From Caldicellulosiruptor morganii (GTDB taxonomy: Bacteria; Bacillota; Thermoanaerobacteria; Caldicellulosiruptorales; Caldicellulosiruptoraceae), in assembly GCF_026810225.1 (NCBI RefSeq), contig NZ_CP113865.1, positions 659,001 to 723,000 on the forward strand: a DNA stretch of 64,000 nucleotides, given 5' to 3'. The notes below the pieces were generated by a model. It did no database searches. It was given only the letters and a program-made list of their open reading frames with translations, and was not told where the DNA came from. Positions 56,483-64,000 of this stretch are shown in pieces; the first letter of the stretch is position 1; each line of letters begins with the position of its first letter. The position numbers and the translations under genes are program-made.

Positions 56483-58318
56483 TAGCCTTTTGCAGAAACG
56501 CTCAATATGAGCGTTATCAAGCTTTATAAAGATTCGAAAAAGTCTGGTCACCCTCCTCATAGTTGTAGTAAAATATGATTATATAAAACAAATTTTCTAC
56601 TATGAGGAGGGGGTCCAAAATGTTCAACAACAAACCTAAACAACTTTCTTTCCTCGATCTATTCTCCCACCTAAAGGCTTCGGCTCTCTACAAGCCTGAA
56701 AGCCTCTTGGGCTTGTTCAATAAATTCATCAACTTATCAGACTACATACCTTCTTCTTTCTACAATGCCTACTACAAATACTTTGGTAAGCATAGATGCT
56801 TCTCCTTAGAATCTATGCTCCTTTGCTTTTTTGTCCAAAAATTACTCAAACTCAATACTCTTACTCAGCTCCGCGCTGTGCTTCTTAACTCCTATGAACT
56901 TCGTTCATTCTGTAACTTAAATGGTAATGTTCCCTCTATTTCAACCTTCTCTCGCTTCAGAAAAATCTTCAACAACGAAATCCATAAACTTTTTCAAAAT
57001 ATCTCTATCCATGCACACAATATTTCTCTTAGGCAATCCCCTGAACTTGCTTCAATCTTAATCTTCGATACAACCGGTATTGTCCCAAAGGTCCGTGAAA
57101 ATAACCCTAAATTCATTCAATCTCTCTTGAAAAATACCTCAAAAGCTAACCCTGAGCTGTCCTCTGATAAAATCTACTCTCTTGTTTATTCTTCCTTGCC
57201 TAAAACTGCTAATGCTAATTCTAATATCCGTCTTATGTTCGTAAATGGCCATTTCTGCTGGGCTTTAAAATTCGCTGTCATTACCAATGCTCTCGGTATT
57301 CCTTTGGCTTTAGTACCTCTGTTTAACTCTGACTCTCCTTCTTCTGACCCTCAAGAAGCAAAGGCTATCTCTGACTCTAAAGCTTTATTTCCTTCGCTCG
57401 AAACTCTATTCTCTTACATTCCCAAAAATTTCTCCACTTTCATCGCTGACAGTGCCTTGGATGCACATAACATCTACTCAACTTTAAAAAACACTTTCAA
57501 CTTCTCCAAAATCATTATCCCTCTAAATCCAAGAGCCTCTAAAAATACTACACCTACTTCAGACCCTAATATCGTTATATCTGAAGATGGTGTCCCTATC
57601 TGCAAAAAGTTCAATCAACCTTTTAAACCTGAAGGCAAATGTCAGGGTAAAAATCGTTCTGTGCGTCTTAAATGGGTCTGCCCCATGTCTTGTTATAAAG
57701 ACGGCAAACGCATTTGCTCTTGCCCTCAACCTTGTACTAACTCTAAATCTGGCAGAATGTTCTACACTTACCCTGACGATTTTCGCTCTTCCCCAGGTAT
57801 CAACAGAAATTCTCAAGAGTTTTTAGACCTCTACAATAAACGTGTCGCTGTAGAGCAGACTATTTATCACCTAAAATCCTATATGGGCTCCGATGTCATC
57901 TGTACTTATGACCATATTTCTATCTTCTCTGATTTTTTACTCTCTGCAATTACTTACTCACTTTTGTTTATCCTTGCTCACAATATCAAACTCTATTGTT
58001 CTAAATTAACTATCAAAAAGCTTAACAAACTCAAAAAACTTATCGCTTAAAACTACAATTTTTCTTAAATCATTAATCTACCAAAAATTTGTGACTTTGT
58101 TTTTTACTTAACCTTCTAAAGCCAAGAAGCTAGAAGGCTTAGGATACTATTGTCTTTTTTGATATTGTTAATTTTTGTCATATGTTTGTTGCTGATTATT
58201 TTTGTTTGCATTGATAATATTTGGTTGTCATTTTGCTTTTCTTTTTGTATCTTGATAGTATTTCATGTTAGTATTGGCATCTGTTACCTTCAATCACCAA
58301 CCATTTTGCAAACGGCTA
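56483..58318 (+). mobile_element. Insertion sequence, copy 2 (1836 bp)
   Basis: Same ends, orientation and length as copy 1, displaced by exactly 20,346 bp. Includes the ribosome-site-masking inverted repeat (56551-56611) and the non-coding tail (58051-58318) with its CCTTCTA/TAGAAGG hairpin. The unchanged sequence indicates a very recent duplication or continuing gene conversion. Confidence 0.93.
56620..58050 (+). CDS. Transposase of IS copy 2
   Basis: A 476-aa protein identical to the copy 1 transposase over the whole translated length, with the same catalytic segments (LIFDTTG, FIADSALDAH, AVEQTIYHLKS) and the same start choice (ATG after GGAGGGGG). With both copies intact, either can mobilise or recombine with the other. 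Deletion of the intervening 18.5 kb, including dapF, by homologous recombination is possible in principle. Confidence 0.9.
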   Translation: MFNNKPKQLSFLDLFSHLKASALYKPESLLGLFNKFINLSDYIPSSFYNAYYKYFGKHRCFSLESMLLCFFVQKLLKLNTLTQLRAVLLNSYELRSFCNLNGNVPSISTFSRFRKIFNNEIHKLFQNISIHAHNISLRQSPELASILIFDTTGIVPKVRENNPKFIQSLLKNTSKANPELSSDKIYSLVYSSLPKTANANSNIRLMFVNGHFCWALKFAVITNALGIPLALVPLFNSDSPSSDPQEAKAISDSKALFPSLETLFSYIPKNFSTFIADSALDAHNIYSTLKNTFNFSKIIIPLNPRASKNTTPTSDPNIVISEDGVPICKKFNQPFKPEGKCQGKNRSVRLKWVCPMSCYKDGKRICSCPQPCTNSKSGRMFYTYPDDFRSSPGINRNSQEFLDLYNKRVAVEQTIYHLKSYMGSDVICTYDHISIFSDFLLSAITYSLLFILAHNIKLYCSKLTIKKLNKLKKLIA

Positions 58319-58394: not shown

Positions 58395-58423
58395 TTGTAA
58401 AGTTTCATTTCAGGTGGTATAAT
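58395..58423 (+). promoter_or_regulatory. Promoter of the aldehyde oxidoreductase operon
   Basis: TTGTAA (58395-58400), a 17-nt spacer and TATAAT (58418-58423). A leader of ~125 nt precedes the ferredoxin gene; I recognise no riboswitch in it. Confidence 0.65.
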
Positions 58424-58555
58424 AAGATTGTTAAAAAATAAACAAAAAAATATTTGATTGTTCTGGGGCTTTTATGGGTATAAATACTTATATATTGCTC
58501 AATTTAGGAAAATACTATTAAGATAGAGTCAAATATGAATAGGTGGTGATTTAAA

Positions 58556-58966
58556 TTGCCAAAAGTATTAAGAGCCGATAATATGAACAAGTGTCTCGGA
58601 TGTTTTACATGTATGCTTACATGTGCAGCTGTAAATCATAACAATCACAACTTAGCAAAGAGCTCTATAAAAGTTAAGACAAGAGGAGGGCTTCAGAGCA
58701 AGTTTGCAGCAACCATTTGTGTTGCCTGCAAAGAGCCTGCCTGCGCCGAGGCCTGTCCAACAAATGCGCTTGTTAAGCGTCCGGGTGGAGGCGTGAGGTT
58801 AATAGAAGAAAAGTGTATTGCCTGTGAAAAGTGTGTTTCGGCTTGCATTGTTGGTTCCATTCACATGGACTATGACAGAAAAATTCCAATTGTATGTAAG
58901 CACTGCGGAGCATGTGTTAGAATGTGCCCGCATAACTGTTTGAGCATGGAAGAGGTGAGTGAGTAA
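58556..58966 (+). CDS. Four-cluster ferredoxin-type protein of the AOR operon
   Basis: A 136-aa iron-sulfur protein with four cysteine groups, CLGCFTCMLTC, CVACKEPACAEACP, CIACEKCVSAC and CKHCGACVRMCP. These can hold about four [4Fe-4S] clusters. It resembles the DMSO-reductase-type/HycB electron-transfer subunits found beside aldehyde:ferredoxin oxidoreductases, so it probably carries electrons from the tungsten enzyme encoded next. TTG 58556 follows AGGTGGTG. The gap to the next start is 1 nt. Confidence 0.9.
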   Translation: MPKVLRADNMNKCLGCFTCMLTCAAVNHNNHNLAKSSIKVKTRGGLQSKFAATICVACKEPACAEACPTNALVKRPGGGVRLIEEKCIACEKCVSACIVGSIHMDYDRKIPIVCKHCGACVRMCPHNCLSMEEVSE

Positions 58967-58967
58967 A

Positions 58968-60728
58968 ATGATTGGAACAGATTTTATTAGAGTTTTATAC
59001 ATCGACCTTACGAGCAAAAAGGCAGACATACAGGAAAGAAAGGACCTGTATAAATACTTAGGCGGAGCGGGAGTTGCAGCAAAGCTTCTTGAAGAGAACA
59101 TGAAAAAGGATTTACCACCCCTTCATGAACAGCAGCCACTTATACTTTCTATTGGTCCGCTTTCGACAATATTTCCTGTTGTGACCAAAGCTGTTGCAAC
59201 ATTTATCTCACCCCACACAGGTGAGTATGGTGAGAGCCATGCAGGTGGAAGGCTTGCAATGGCAATCAGAAATGCAGGCTACGATGCAATTGTTATAACC
59301 GGAAAGGCTGAAAAGCCCACATATCTTGTTATAACAGACAAATCTATAGAGTTCAAGGATGCGCGTGCCATGTGGGGGCTTGATGTTGAAGAGGTTGGAA
59401 GGGTTATCAGAGAAAGAGAGCCCGGCCCCGGCAAGAGGAGTATTATAAGAATTGGGAAAGCGGGCGAAAACCTTGTGACATATTCGTGCGTGAATGTTGA
59501 CACATACAGACATTTTGGAAGACTTGGAATTGGAGCTGTGTTTGGTAGCAAGAACCTAAAAGCAATGATGATAATGGGCGAAGAAGACATACCAATTTCC
59601 AATCTCAAAGAGTATTTTAAAACATACCAGGAGATCTACAAAAAGGTCACGCAAACAGATGCTATGGCAAAGTATCATGAACTTGGAACGCCCATGAACA
59701 TCAAAGTTTTAAATGCTATAAATTCCCTGCCAACAAAGAACCTTTTGCAATCCACTTTTGAGTATGCAGATAACATATCAGGCGAGACCTTTGCAGAAAA
59801 GAATCTGATAAGAAAGGTTTCATGTGTTGGCTGCCCGATAGGGTGTATTCATATTGGACAGTTCAGACGCGAATTTGACAAAGGGTATGAATACGAATCA
59901 ATAGCAGTGTCATACGACCATGAGCTAATTTATGCTCTGGGGAGCCTTCTTGGGATAAAAACAACTGATGAGGTTTTGCAGATAATCGATGAGGTTGAGC
60001 TTGCAGGGCTTGATGCAATTTCGACCGGTGTTGTTCTGGCATGGGCAACAGAGGCACTCAACAAAGGCCTTATAACAAGAGAAGATACTCTGGCTGACCT
60101 TGAATTTGGCAACACCATGGAGTATATAAAGGCAATTGACAACATTGCAGACAGGGTAAATGAGTTTTACTATACAATTGGGAATGGTCTTAAAGAGGCG
60201 GTCAAGAAGTACGGTGGCGAGGAGTTTGCACTTTTATATGGCGGAAATGAGATGGCTGGTTATCACACAGGGTATGCTTTTGCGCTTGGTCAAACAGTTG
60301 GTGCAAGACATTCGCACTTAGATAATGCAGGATATTCATATGACCAGAGCGCAAAAGAGTTAAAAGATGAAGAAATAGTGGATTATGTGATAAAGGAAGA
60401 AAAAGAGAGGGATGTTTTAACATCGCTTTGCATCTGTCTTTTTGCAAGAAAGGTATATGACAGACCTACAATATTGAAGGCTTTGAATACAATTGGCATT
60501 AACTGGACAGATGAAGACCTGACCCGGCTTGGCAATGACATTTTCTTTACAAAACTTAAAATAAAAAAAGAACTTGGTTATTCGCTTGAAAACTACAGAT
60601 TCCCCAGGAGAATTTTTGAAACGCCAACTCTCTGGGGTAAGATGGATGAGCAGAGGTTAAGCAGGCTTTTGAAGATGTACATTGAAAGGGTGGAGAAGGA
60701 GTATGAAGATTGGAGTAGAGGTGAATGA
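58968..60728 (+). CDS. Aldehyde:ferredoxin oxidoreductase family (tungsten enzyme)
   Basis: A 586-aa AOR-family protein that should oxidise aldehydes to acids using a tungsten-bis-pterin site and a [4Fe-4S] cluster. The N-domain has YLGGAGVAAKLLEENM, SIGPLSTIFPVVTKAV and GESHAGGRLAMAIRNAGYDAIVITGKA. Cluster ligands C286, C289, C293 (CVGCPIGC) and C488/C490 (SLCICLF) are spaced as in Pyrococcus AOR. The pterin-binding GGNEMAGYHTGYAFALGQ follows. ATG 58968 is chosen; GTG 58959 overlaps the previous gene. The aldehyde used is unknown. Confidence 0.92.
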   Translation: MIGTDFIRVLYIDLTSKKADIQERKDLYKYLGGAGVAAKLLEENMKKDLPPLHEQQPLILSIGPLSTIFPVVTKAVATFISPHTGEYGESHAGGRLAMAIRNAGYDAIVITGKAEKPTYLVITDKSIEFKDARAMWGLDVEEVGRVIREREPGPGKRSIIRIGKAGENLVTYSCVNVDTYRHFGRLGIGAVFGSKNLKAMMIMGEEDIPISNLKEYFKTYQEIYKKVTQTDAMAKYHELGTPMNIKVLNAINSLPTKNLLQSTFEYADNISGETFAEKNLIRKVSCVGCPIGCIHIGQFRREFDKGYEYESIAVSYDHELIYALGSLLGIKTTDEVLQIIDEVELAGLDAISTGVVLAWATEALNKGLITREDTLADLEFGNTMEYIKAIDNIADRVNEFYYTIGNGLKEAVKKYGGEEFALLYGGNEMAGYHTGYAFALGQTVGARHSHLDNAGYSYDQSAKELKDEEIVDYVIKEEKERDVLTSLCICLFARKVYDRPTILKALNTIGINWTDEDLTRLGNDIFFTKLKIKKELGYSLENYRFPRRIFETPTLWGKMDEQRLSRLLKMYIERVEKEYEDWSRGE

Positions 60729-60933
60729 TTTTTTCAGAAGATATGGTAGCAGAGTTGGCAGATTTGAACTTGAAATAGGGGAAAACACCAGTGTCCAGGC
60801 CCTTCTTCAAAAGCTCAATATTCCAGCTGACAAAGTTGGCTTTGTCATTGTAAACCAGAAAAGGGTTGACAATGACTATGTTTTTTCAGACAATGATAGT
60901 GTGTATATAACTCCATTTGCAACTGGAGGCTAA
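60703..60933 (+). CDS. MoaD/ThiS-like sulfur carrier
   Basis: A 76-aa ubiquitin-fold protein ending in Gly-Gly (FATGG), the site of thiocarboxylate formation. FELEIGENTSVQALLQKLNI and VIVNQKRVDNDYVFSDNDSVYITPFATGG fit the family. It overlaps the AOR gene by 26 nt and precedes a MoeB-like gene. This suggests dithiolene sulfur delivery for the pterin cofactor of the AOR. ATG 60703 follows GAGAAGGA. Confidence 0.9.
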   Translation: MKIGVEVNDFFRRYGSRVGRFELEIGENTSVQALLQKLNIPADKVGFVIVNQKRVDNDYVFSDNDSVYITPFATGG

Positions 60934-60939
60934 GGTTTT

Positions 60940-61620
60940 ATGCAAAAAAGGTTTCTAAAAAATATAGGTGCGTTGACCGAAGAAGGGCAAAAAAGAATTT
61001 TTTCAACAGTTGTTGCTGTTGTTGGTGTTGGTGGCATAGGCGGATTTTTGATTGAGGGTCTGGCAAGGCTTGGAGTAAAGAAGATTATAGCAGTTGATAT
61101 GGACACATTTGATGAGACAAACCTCAACAGGCAGATAATATCGAATATTAACAATTTGGGCAAATACAAGGTTTTTGAAGCAGAAAAAAGGGTGAAAGAG
61201 ATAAATCCCGGTGTGTATTTTGAACCAATAAAAGAAAAAGCATACCTTGAGAATCTTGATGTTTTTCTCTATGAAGCCGACTATATATTTGATGCGACAG
61301 ATAACATGGAGATAAGAAAAAGCTTATCTAAGTTTGTACAGAATACAGGCAAGGTTTTAATCCATGGCGGGTGTGCTGGCTGGTATGCACAGGTTGCAAT
61401 CATCACAAAAGATACACCCGGGATAGAAAGGCTTTTGGGAGAGATAAATGTTGAAGGTGCAGAAAAAGAGCTTGGCAATCCTGTTTTTGCACCAATGCTG
61501 ACAGCAGCACTTGAGCTTTCTGAGTTTTGCAAACTTGTTTCAAAACAGGGAGATATACTTGTTGGCAGGTGCTTGCTTGTAAACCTTTTGACAAATGAAT
61601 ATAGAACCTTTGAATTTTAA
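60940..61620 (+). CDS. MoeB/ThiF/HesA-family adenylyltransferase
   Basis: A 226-aa E1-like enzyme that would adenylate the C-terminus of the MoaD-like protein. VAVVGVGGIGGFLIEGLARLG is the nucleotide loop, DMDTFDETNLNRQI the conserved Asp/Asn/Arg motif, and ADYIFDATDNMEIRKSL the following strand. It lacks the two CxxC zinc pairs of classic MoeB/ThiF and is shorter than MoeB, like HesA-type proteins beside AOR genes. It lies 6 nt after the MoaD-like gene. The riboswitch stem starts one base after its stop. Confidence 0.9.
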   Translation: MQKRFLKNIGALTEEGQKRIFSTVVAVVGVGGIGGFLIEGLARLGVKKIIAVDMDTFDETNLNRQIISNINNLGKYKVFEAEKRVKEINPGVYFEPIKEKAYLENLDVFLYEADYIFDATDNMEIRKSLSKFVQNTGKVLIHGGCAGWYAQVAIITKDTPGIERLLGEINVEGAEKELGNPVFAPMLTAALELSEFCKLVSKQGDILVGRCLLVNLLTNEYRTFEF

Positions 61621-61621
61621 A

Positions 61622-61737
61622 AATCTTTCCGAGCCATTGCAGCCTAAAAAGAGGCTTTTGCCTCTTCATGGTGCTTTGGCCGATAGGGTGCAGGTTCAGG
61701 GAAACCACTGCGCCTCCCGCTTTGGAAAGGAAAGATT
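61622..61737 (+). ncRNA. Moco/Tuco-type riboswitch aptamer
   Basis: The RNA matches the molybdenum/tungsten cofactor motif. P1 is AATCTTTCC (61622-61630) with GGAAAGATT (61729-61737). TTTCCGAGCC is at the 5' side. A hairpin AGAGGC/GCCTCT lies at 61650-61665. GGCCGA follows, then GGTGCAG (61687-61693) pairs with CTGCGCC enclosing GGTT...AACC. The conserved CACTGCGCCTCCCG with TTTGGAAAGG closes the core. It directly follows the MoeB-like gene and precedes an intrinsic terminator and a Tup-type transporter. Cofactor-dependent termination is inferred. Mo versus W preference cannot be read with certainty. Confidence 0.85.
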
Positions 61738-61739
61738 CA

Positions 61740-61793
61740 AAAAGGGTACTCTTTCTGGTTTTTCAAAGCGGGGAGTACCCTTTTGCTTTTTTT
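61740..61793 (+). terminator. Riboswitch expression-platform terminator
   Basis: AAAAGGGTACTC (61740-61751) pairs perfectly with GAGTACCCTTTT (61773-61784), followed by GC and seven T. It starts 3 nt after the aptamer P1, as expected for transcriptional control of tupABC. Confidence 0.9.
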
Positions 61794-61824: not shown

Positions 61825-62634
61825 ATGAAAAGGTATATAGCCAGAATTTTATTTAGCATATTTTTTGCCATTTTGATTTTAAGTTTTTATTCTTATTCGG
61901 AAGATATGAAAAGCTTCAGGATAGCCACCACAACAAGCATCTATGACAGTGGTTTTTTGGATTTTGTTGCTCCTGAGTTTGAAAAAAAGAGCAATATAAA
62001 ACTCAGTTTTCTCTCTGTTGGAAGTGGTCAGGCTGTGAGAATATTTAAAAATGGGGATGCTGATGGAATAATAATCCATGAGAAATCTTTTTTGGATGAC
62101 CTGAAAAAGCAAAAACTTATTCAAAAGTATACTCCTTTTGTTTCAAACCAGTTCATACTTGTTGGTCCAAAAAGCAAAAAGGATTTATTCAAAAAGGTAA
62201 AATCCATTCACGCAGCATTTTTGATAATAAAAGACAGAAATTTGAAATTTGTATCACGTGCAGACAATTCTGCAACATATATAAGAGAGCTTGAAATATG
62301 GAAACTGGCAAAGACAGAGCCTGATTTTAAAGGTTATATTAAGTCGGGGCAGGGTATGGGAATGAGTTTGAATCTGGCAAACGAGAAAGAAGCTTTTATT
62401 TTAACTGATGAAGCAACATTTTATAAAATGAAGGACAAACTTGACAGGCTGGATATTGTGTATCAAAATCCCGGGGAAGAAATATTGTCAAACACATATT
62501 ACTTTGCTTTTTCACCCGGAAAAACAAAGCTTGCCTTTTTTGAAATGTTTTTAAAAAGCAAAGAGTTTAAAAGGCTTGTTGCTTCTTTCAATCAAAAGTA
62601 TTTTAAAAAAGAGATTTACAGAGCAGCAAAATAA
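61825..62634 (+). CDS. tupA: TupA-like tungstate/molybdate-binding protein
   Basis: A 269-aa extracellular solute-binding protein. A hydrophobic N-terminus (RYIARILFSIFFAILILSFYSYS) serves as signal or anchor; no lipobox cysteine is seen. The ligand motif RIATTTSIYDSGFLDFVAPEFEKK, then VGSGQAVRIFKNGDADG and FVSRADNSATYIRELEIW and GQGMGMSLNLANEKEAFILTDEATF, match the TupA branch of tungstate-binding proteins. ATG 61825 is 10 nt from AAAAGGGG; TTG 61819 is too close. It is under the riboswitch and probably serves the adjacent tungsten enzyme. Confidence 0.85.
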   Translation: MKRYIARILFSIFFAILILSFYSYSEDMKSFRIATTTSIYDSGFLDFVAPEFEKKSNIKLSFLSVGSGQAVRIFKNGDADGIIIHEKSFLDDLKKQKLIQKYTPFVSNQFILVGPKSKKDLFKKVKSIHAAFLIIKDRNLKFVSRADNSATYIRELEIWKLAKTEPDFKGYIKSGQGMGMSLNLANEKEAFILTDEATFYKMKDKLDRLDIVYQNPGEEILSNTYYFAFSPGKTKLAFFEMFLKSKEFKRLVASFNQKYFKKEIYRAAK

Positions 62635-62653: not shown

Positions 62654-63286
62654 ATGATTGCAAATGTTATTGTATCAACCCTAATTGTCTGTATTCCATC
62701 AACAATAATTTCACTTATTATAGGGATTCCCGCAGGTTTTTTTCTCAAGATAAAAAGATTCAGGGCTCGAAGACTGGTTTTAAGGCTTGTATATACTTTT
62801 TCGGGACTTCCTCCTGTGCTGGCAGGGCTTTTTGTGTATATAATACTTTCCAGAAAAGGTCCTCTTGGTTTTTTGAATATTCTTTTTACCAGGTGGGCAA
62901 TGATTATTGCCCAGGTAATTTTGATTGTGCCAATAGTTATTATGTATACACTGTCAGGACTTAAAAATGTGCAAATGGTTTTGGACAATCTGGACTTTTT
63001 AAATGTAAAAGGTAAAAAAAGGTACATTGCACTTGTAAGAGAGTATTCAAAAGAGCTAATTTATGCAACCATCCTTGGGCTTTCGCGTGCGATCTCCGAG
63101 GTGGGAGCTGTTTTGATTGTTGGTGGGAATATAGAAGGAGAGACTCGAATACTTACAACAGCCATTATATATGAAATAACAAAAGGAGAATTTTCAAGCG
63201 CGCTTTTGCTGGGGGCAGTTTTGCTCATTATATCATTTGCATTTAATACTATTTTGCAAATACTGCAGGGTGATATAGTTGATTGA
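62654..63286 (+). CDS. tupB: TupB-like ABC transporter permease
   Basis: A 210-aa inner-membrane permease with about five helices. The cytoplasmic loop EYSKELIYATILGLSRAISEVGAVLIVGGNIEGETRILTTAI carries the EAA-type coupling motif of molybdate/tungstate permeases. The first helices include SGLPPVLAGLFVYIIL, typical of TupB. ATG 62654; overlaps the ATPase gene by 8 nt. Confidence 0.88.
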   Translation: MIANVIVSTLIVCIPSTIISLIIGIPAGFFLKIKRFRARRLVLRLVYTFSGLPPVLAGLFVYIILSRKGPLGFLNILFTRWAMIIAQVILIVPIVIMYTLSGLKNVQMVLDNLDFLNVKGKKRYIALVREYSKELIYATILGLSRAISEVGAVLIVGGNIEGETRILTTAIIYEITKGEFSSALLLGAVLLIISFAFNTILQILQGDIVD

Positions 63287-63863
63287 GGTAAAAGAGGTTG
63301 AAAAGTTCTTTGAAGACAGGTTTTTGTTCAGATGTGAAAACTTAAAATTCGAAAATAAAGGTCTTTACATCATAAAAGGTCCAAATGGATGCGGAAAGAC
63401 AACTTTTTTGATGATGCTCTTTGGAAAAGATAGAAATTTCAATGGGATTATAGAGAATACATTCTATGAAAAGGTTATGCTTCCGCAGCAGCCGTATTTT
63501 TTCAAAGGAAGTGTTTTATATAACCTTTCTTTGAGTTTAAAAGGGGAATTGCTCAGGGAAGCGATAAATATACTCAAAGCGTTTTCAATAGACCCTGATT
63601 TGAACATACACTCTCTTTCGCTTGGTCAAAAACAGCTTGTTGCCTTTTTGAGAGTTTTCTTTGCAAAGTCTGATGTCCTTTTTTTGGATGAACCTGATTC
63701 ATATCTTGGCAGTGCTGTTAAAGATTTTATATTTGACAGAATAGAAAAAGATGCCCGAAATAGATGTATAATTGTTGTGACACATGATTCATGGGAAACA
63801 AAGCACGCAAAAGAGATCTATTTTGAGAACAATCAAATAAAAGAAAAAGGTGGTGCAGTATGA
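63279..63863 (+). CDS. tupC: TupC-like ABC transporter ATPase
   Basis: A 194-aa ATPase that powers the importer. Walker A is IKGPNGCGKTTFLMM, the signature is HSLSLGQKQLVAFLRVF (LSLGQ instead of LSGGQ), Walker B is DVLFLDEPDSYLG, and the switch His is VVTHD. It is short for an importer ATPase: no C-terminal regulatory domain. TTG 63279 lies within the end of tupB. The stop overlaps the moeA start (ATGA). Confidence 0.9.
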   Translation: MIEVKEVEKFFEDRFLFRCENLKFENKGLYIIKGPNGCGKTTFLMMLFGKDRNFNGIIENTFYEKVMLPQQPYFFKGSVLYNLSLSLKGELLREAINILKAFSIDPDLNIHSLSLGQKQLVAFLRVFFAKSDVLFLDEPDSYLGSAVKDFIFDRIEKDARNRCIIVVTHDSWETKHAKEIYFENNQIKEKGGAV

Positions 63864-64000
63864 AGGTTTTGAAGACTTACTTTGAAGTGTTTGATATTTT
63901 AAGAAATGAATTTTTGGACTTTAAACTCAGAACAGAGATTGTCCCTATAAAAGATGCTGTTAACAGGATATGTGCAAAGGATGTTGTATCAAGCATTGAC
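63860..64000 (+). CDS. moeA: Molybdopterin molybdenumtransferase MoeA, N-terminus (partial)
   Basis: The first 47 codons, cut by the window end. VPIKDAVNRICAKDVVSSID matches the MoeA N-terminal pattern (A-x-G-R-x-L-A-x-D). MoeA inserts molybdate or tungstate into adenylylated molybdopterin, fitting its place after the Tup transporter. ATG 63860 overlaps the tupC stop by 3 nt in an ATGA arrangement. Confidence 0.8.
   Translation, partial: MKVLKTYFEVFDILRNEFLDFKLRTEIVPIKDAVNRICAKDVVSSID

Follow-up and report, generated by a model that had tools for sequence, protein, structure and literature searches.

The window analysed here is a 64-kb stretch of DNA in which genes for a tungsten enzyme are followed by genes for metal uptake and pterin synthesis. 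The gene order is worS-worL-worX-moeB, riboswitch, tupA-tupB-tupC-moeA-moeA-moaA-moaC, with mogA convergent. The following genes were annotated around the RNA:

58556–58966, + strand: worS, 4Fe-4S ferredoxin-like small subunit
58959–60728, + strand: worL, large subunit of the tungsten aldehyde ferredoxin oxidoreductase family (PF02730/PF01314; PDB 1aor, E 2e-64)
60703–60933, + strand: worX, ThiS/MoaD-like sulfur carrier (PF02597)
60940–61620, + strand: moeB/thiF-like adenylyltransferase (PF00899), stop codon TAA at 61618–61620
61825–62634, + strand: tupA-like tungstate-binding protein, ATG at 61825 (NF041772, 126 bits; PDB 3lr1, E 1e-36)
62654–63286, + strand: tupB-like permease (NF041773, 120.6 bits, under the cut-off of 320)
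63279–63863, + strand: tupC-like ATPase (PF00005)
63860–64000, + strand: start of moeA; the operon runs past the window (moeA2, moaA and a moaC-MOSC fusion)

The worL product contains the AFOR_N and AFOR_C domains (E 1e-65 and 6e-59), which assigns it to the AFOR family. The binding protein reached 126 bits against a cut-off of 400 for the TupA equivalog NF041772, the only family listed for the binder; it is called TupA-like here because it lies below this cut-off, yet a tungstate-binding protein is among its best relatives of solved structure. The RNA is located 5′ of Mo/W cofactor and transport genes, as is characteristic of RF01055 members. MoaE (PF02391, molybdopterin synthase large subunit) was found in none of the 12 genus genomes, while the rest of the pathway is present. 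Among 61 relatives it was absent from all 32 WOR-bearing genomes and was detected in only four, none with WOR. In the operon studied, which lacks MoaE, the MOSC domain is fused to MoaC; a MOSC protein has been suggested as a MoaE replacement in Dehalobacter (PMC4751268).

A covariance-model search with RF01055 (Rfam Moco/Tuco) gave a full-length match with 63.5 bits (E 6.5e-13) against a gathering score of 36 bits, and the RNAs of the relatives score above this cut-off too. It was the sole match both in the window and in the whole 2.48-Mb genome, and the class named by the original prediction, for which such a match was decisive, was thereby upheld. The RNA comprises the following elements:

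61615–61748, + strand: Moco/Tuco riboswitch aptamer (RF01055) without P3 (CGATA joins P2 to P4)
61622–61630, + strand: 5′ strand of P1 (folding)
61729–61737, + strand: 3′ strand of P1 (folding)
61740–61784, + strand: intrinsic terminator hairpin, −20.7 kcal/mol, with a T-rich tract running to 61793 (folding)

The conserved core described earlier was recovered (CCGAGCC, GGCCGATAGGG, GCGCCTCCCG and TTTGGAAAGG), and folding also returned the expected 9-bp P1, 61622–61630 with 61729–61737, which starts one base past the moeB stop codon as had been claimed. The terminator does follow P1 directly, though with a gap of 2 nt rather than 3 nt. The neighbours named in the original prediction, a W-type AOR/WOR on the 5′ side and a TupA-like binder on the 3′ side, are likewise in place, as is the terminator platform. 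The fold of the whole RNA was better than all 200 dinucleotide shuffles (z −4.5). It should be noted that a simple terminator scan did not list the 61740–61784 hairpin, probably owing to the loop limit of the scan, and that it was folding that found it. A translation-type platform was rejected, as the Shine-Dalgarno region of tupA is situated past the terminator and, in the folds seen, pairs with no part of the aptamer. The possibility of a P3 hidden inside the long P2 hairpin was also rejected, since the additional nucleotides belong to the apical portion of P2, and this portion covaries.

RF01055 occurs exactly once per genome in the genus (12 genomes) and in its sister genus, in every case right at the moeB stop codon, and the order worL-worX-moeB-RNA-tupA-tupB is kept across both genera. 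In the relatives compared, the 5′ strand of P1 begins within a few bases of this stop, and where P1 is longer the stop codon lies inside the helix. The abutment is not unique to the lineage, as a few other RNAs are placed alike, for example after mobA-like genes in genomes G041 and G085. In an alignment of 16 sequences, 94.5% of the cells were paired and 16 pairs had changed on both sides, which none of 500 shuffles reached; the conserved structure is thus backed by covariation. Based on its sequence and this covariation, the element is a true riboswitch of the known Moco/Tuco class, P3-less in type and well conserved. With that class (Regulski et al. 2008, PMC2408646) it shares P1, P2, P4 and P5, the GAAA loop in P4, the tetraloop receptor region, a site 5′ of tungstate transport and pterin genes, and the terminator platform. 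Caldicellulosiruptor is not named in the main text of that paper.

The same operon with the RNA was found in Caldicoprobacter oshimai, C. algeriensis and one MAG. The TupA encoded here is 67% identical to that of Caldicoprobacter and only about 48% identical to that of the sister genus of the same family. Together with the synteny of the whole operon, these identities suggest horizontal transfer of the riboswitch-bearing operon. In a sister species (G006; locus L103, G006:C1:1884000-1894500), a transposase gene lies on the opposite strand between the riboswitch terminator and tupA, and the switch may no longer control tup there. This transposase resembles one encoded in the window at 56602–58050. 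Some relatives (G051 and similar genomes) carry up to 14 RF01055 copies, several of them in tandem.

The position of the RNA behind moeB raises the question of which transcripts reach it, for which the following features are relevant:

58395–58423, + strand: promoter-like TTGTAA-17-TATAAT 5′ of worS, the inferred operon promoter (10/12 matches, TG before the −10)
58428–58445, + strand: Rex-operator-like TTGTTAAAAAATAAACAA, just 3′ of the −10 (11/14)
61577–61594, + strand: second Rex-like site TTGTAAACCTTTTGACAA, inside the 3′ end of moeB (sequence match)

The element at 58395–58423 is the best promoter upstream of the riboswitch. The tungsten-enzyme genes are bracketed by two palindromes that resemble Rex operators, the first at this promoter and the second 27 nt before the riboswitch. 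The locus resembles Athe_0820-0826 of C. bescii, described as a tungsten oxidoreductase (XOR/GOR) locus (PMC6391272), in the order ferredoxin, oxidoreductase, tungsten transport system and in the corresponding places of the Rex sites; in the part of that report consulted, control is ascribed to Rex and a riboswitch is not mentioned. There, the Rex site 5′ of Athe_0820, the homologous gene, binds Rex in vitro, while the site 5′ of Athe_0824, the counterpart of 61577–61594, was bound weakly; in the rex mutant both genes rise, and tup goes up together with the WOR genes (PMC6391272). An increase of both genes despite one good Rex site is consistent with transcription that reads through from the enzyme genes to tup.

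It is somewhat unlikely, though a serious alternative, that a separate promoter in the last part of moeB serves the riboswitch, which would then be a conventional 5′ leader for the tup operon, with read-through from the WOR genes being minor. A candidate is indeed present: TTGACA (61588–61593), a 16-nt spacer and TTGAAT (61610–61615), from which the start would fall near 61622. Published unit predictions also separate Athe_0820 and Athe_0824 (PMC6391272). However, the second A that is conserved in −10 elements is missing here, the sequence in question encodes protein and is conserved at that level, CTGACA is found in most relatives, and the joint rise of tup and WOR genes in the C. bescii rex mutant occurs with Rex binding well only 5′ of Athe_0820 (PMC6391272). 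The earlier claim that read-through from the enzyme genes is gated by the RNA is borne out by position and agrees with the rex-mutant expression, but a weak promoter just before P1 is possible.

As for the ligand, Regulski et al. used the P3 stem to subdivide the class and suggested the tungsten cofactor as the ligand of its P3-less members; when P3 was deleted in the E. coli RNA, regulation was disrupted and specificity did not change (PMC2408646). P3 was scored on a covariance-model alignment, as the counts obtained with regular expressions, MAFFT columns and pairwise alignment were unreliable. The set comprised 154 matches to the covariance model, almost all of them from the phylum to which this genome belongs, and it included related sequences, 16 of them from this lineage. 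The length of the P2-P4 joint fell into two clear peaks, 2–7 nt (P3 absent, n = 102) and 16–27 nt (P3 present, n = 52). At 5 nt (CGATA), the joint of the window RNA belongs to the first. Like other RNAs of the P3-less 'Tuco' (Wco) subtype, it adjoins a tungsten enzyme gene (WOR, upstream) and a Tup-like transporter (a TupA-like gene, downstream), although its apical P2 hairpin is longer than in most P3-less RNAs sampled. Where tupA or worL was present and no Mo-type gene lay downstream, 42 of 43 RNAs lacked P3, as against 18 of 35 RNAs with modA or DMSO-reductase-family genes. The latter make up 18 of all 102 P3-less RNAs, so the loss of P3 is no proof of tungsten specificity: RNAs in a tungsten context almost all lack P3, but the lack of P3 alone does not imply tungsten. 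The tungsten-cofactor reading gains weight from the missing P3.

The metal use of the genome was considered as well. One WOR is encoded here, and WOR is present in all 12 genus genomes; no enzyme of the xanthine-dehydrogenase type was found in the genome. Exclusive use of tungsten was rejected, given a DMSO-reductase-family protein with mobA and a nif cluster with modAB. The single DMSO-reductase-family protein adjoins a mobA-like gene, and another pterin cofactor may exist. In the nif cluster (L035, G000:C1:448000-464000), modAB lies between nifB-like and nifV-like genes, and molybdate uptake is thus explained by nitrogenase. ModA is missing in three of the 12 genus genomes, with no WtpA above the cut-off there either, and all three keep the RNA, WOR and Tup-like genes. 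This retention favours tungsten as the metal, though a second cofactor may be present.

Accordingly, the same riboswitch and attenuation mechanism could sense the molybdenum cofactor, or either metal form, with the loss of P3 being a lineage variant of no metal meaning. The 18 P3-less RNAs preceding modA or DMSO-reductase-family genes speak for this, as do the mobA-linked DMSO-reductase-family protein and the nif-linked modA of this genome. We regard it as unlikely, because tungsten-gene contexts number 42 P3-less RNAs versus one with P3, because every gene under this copy serves tungstate uptake or pterin synthesis, and because the riboswitch is kept in the three genomes without a ModA or WtpA match. 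The ligand is likely the tungsten rather than the molybdenum cofactor.

The terminator contains the complement of the conserved 3′ core of the aptamer, CUCCCGCUUUGGAAAG. In its loop and 3′ side, CAAAGCGGGGAG is the reverse complement, with one bulge, of the conserved aptamer CUCCCGCUUUG. A mutually exclusive helix of about 20–21 bp can therefore join the core CUCCCGCUUUGGAAAGGAAAG to CUUUCU...UUUUCAAAGCGGGG of the terminator loop and 3′ side:

61714–61734, + strand: 5′ strand of the antiterminator, the aptamer 3′ core (end of P4, P5 with its loop, 3′ half of P1)
61750–61773, + strand: 3′ strand of the antiterminator, CAAAGCGGGG (61764–61773) and the preceding U/C tract, within the terminator (equalled by 0/500 shuffles)

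In stepwise folding, whose energies leave aside tertiary contacts and the ligand, the antiterminator was preferred over the aptamer by 12.2 kcal/mol when the transcript had reached 61774, and the two states became equal (0.2 kcal/mol) once the terminator arm was complete at 61786. At 75 °C the antiterminator was ahead by 7.0 and 1.3 kcal/mol, respectively. When the terminator stretch was shuffled, none of 500 sequences yielded such a competitor. The computed, ligand-free folds thus contain what defines an attenuator, an intrinsic terminator and a mutually exclusive antiterminator overlapping the aptamer.

The partial transcripts of all 16 relatives favour the antiterminator by 5 to 17 kcal/mol, with a helix of 17–22 bp. 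Little compensatory change is to be expected within the lineage, as ligand binding presumably holds the bases of the aptamer constant; the in-lineage evidence for the antiterminator is instead the conserved loop complement. A terminator that only keeps two units of transcription apart, with no regulation through the aptamer, is very improbable: the hairpin is strong (−19 to −29 kcal/mol in relatives), but its loop keeps the aptamer-core complement in 16/16 relatives while the flanking loop bases drift, and the P5 loop matches the terminator across the class.

This matching was seen in the wider set of Moco/Tuco RNAs. Pairing between the aptamer core and downstream sequence reached p ≤ 0.05 in 23 of 71 further RNAs in which a terminator could be detected (3.6 expected), and in 22 of the 23 the pairing partner was inside the terminator. 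In a swap test with 61 non-redundant RNAs with terminators, the variable P5 loop paired with its own terminator better than with those of others (0/10,000 permutations; z −4.3 for the P5 loop and −5.6 for the full core). Examples are CCTGTATGG with TCCATACAGGA and CCGTGTTTTGG with TCCAAAACACC. This result is cross-lineage covariation for a predicted antiterminator that uses P5. In their main text, to which this comparison is confined, Regulski et al. name terminators and no antiterminator for Moco RNAs (PMC2408646), whereas the present analysis defines an alternative helix of about 20 bp, for which we claim no priority. The triple P3-less RNAs in the seven-gene operon of Syntrophomonas wolfei (PMC2408646) also have terminators and pterin and Mo/W transport genes; by comparison, a single RNA here splits enzyme from supply genes and abuts the upstream stop codon.

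Based on the above results, we consider it probable that this P3-less Moco/Tuco riboswitch acts as a default-on, ligand-off transcription attenuator inside the operon, with the tungsten cofactor as its likely ligand. From the aptamer, the terminator and the mutually exclusive helix, which were established by sequence and computation, we infer the following ligand-dependent steps. When the cofactor is absent, the emerging terminator loop would capture the 3′ core of the aptamer, the terminator would be blocked and the polymerase would continue into tupABC-moeA-moeA-moaA-moaC. When the tungsten cofactor is bound, the aptamer would keep its 3′ core and P1, so that the terminator would form and transcription would stop at about 61793. 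The upstream enzyme genes and moeB would stay on, with tungstate uptake and pterin synthesis alone being cut. Most likely, a sufficient supply of cofactor thus makes the switch halt transcription of the genes for tungstate uptake and cofactor synthesis. In this lineage a second input can be proposed: a ribosome halted at the moeB stop would sit on the P1 5′ strand and keep the aptamer from folding. The joint proposal, that the P5 loop with the GGAAAGG core is the antiterminator half in most terminator-type Moco/Tuco RNAs and that the moeB ribosome additionally acts here, is doubtful as a whole.

If read-through dominates, the RNA would leave the enzyme genes free and limit the supply genes only. 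If the ribosome input is true, tungstate uptake would depend on both the cofactor level and the translation of the upstream sulfur-transfer gene. In the published work compared, as far as consulted, the assignment of P3-less RNAs to the tungsten cofactor has rested since 2008 on gene context, with no such RNA demonstrated to sense it. The locus offers a clean test case, with one copy per genome, one WOR family enzyme and a dedicated Tup-like transporter; its host is closely akin to species already used for genetics, and the antiterminator supplies the exact bases to mutate. What is new here is a defined switch, that is, the competition between aptamer, antiterminator and terminator. The most useful addition is the P5-loop antitermination rule, which predicts how other Moco/Tuco RNAs with terminators would switch.
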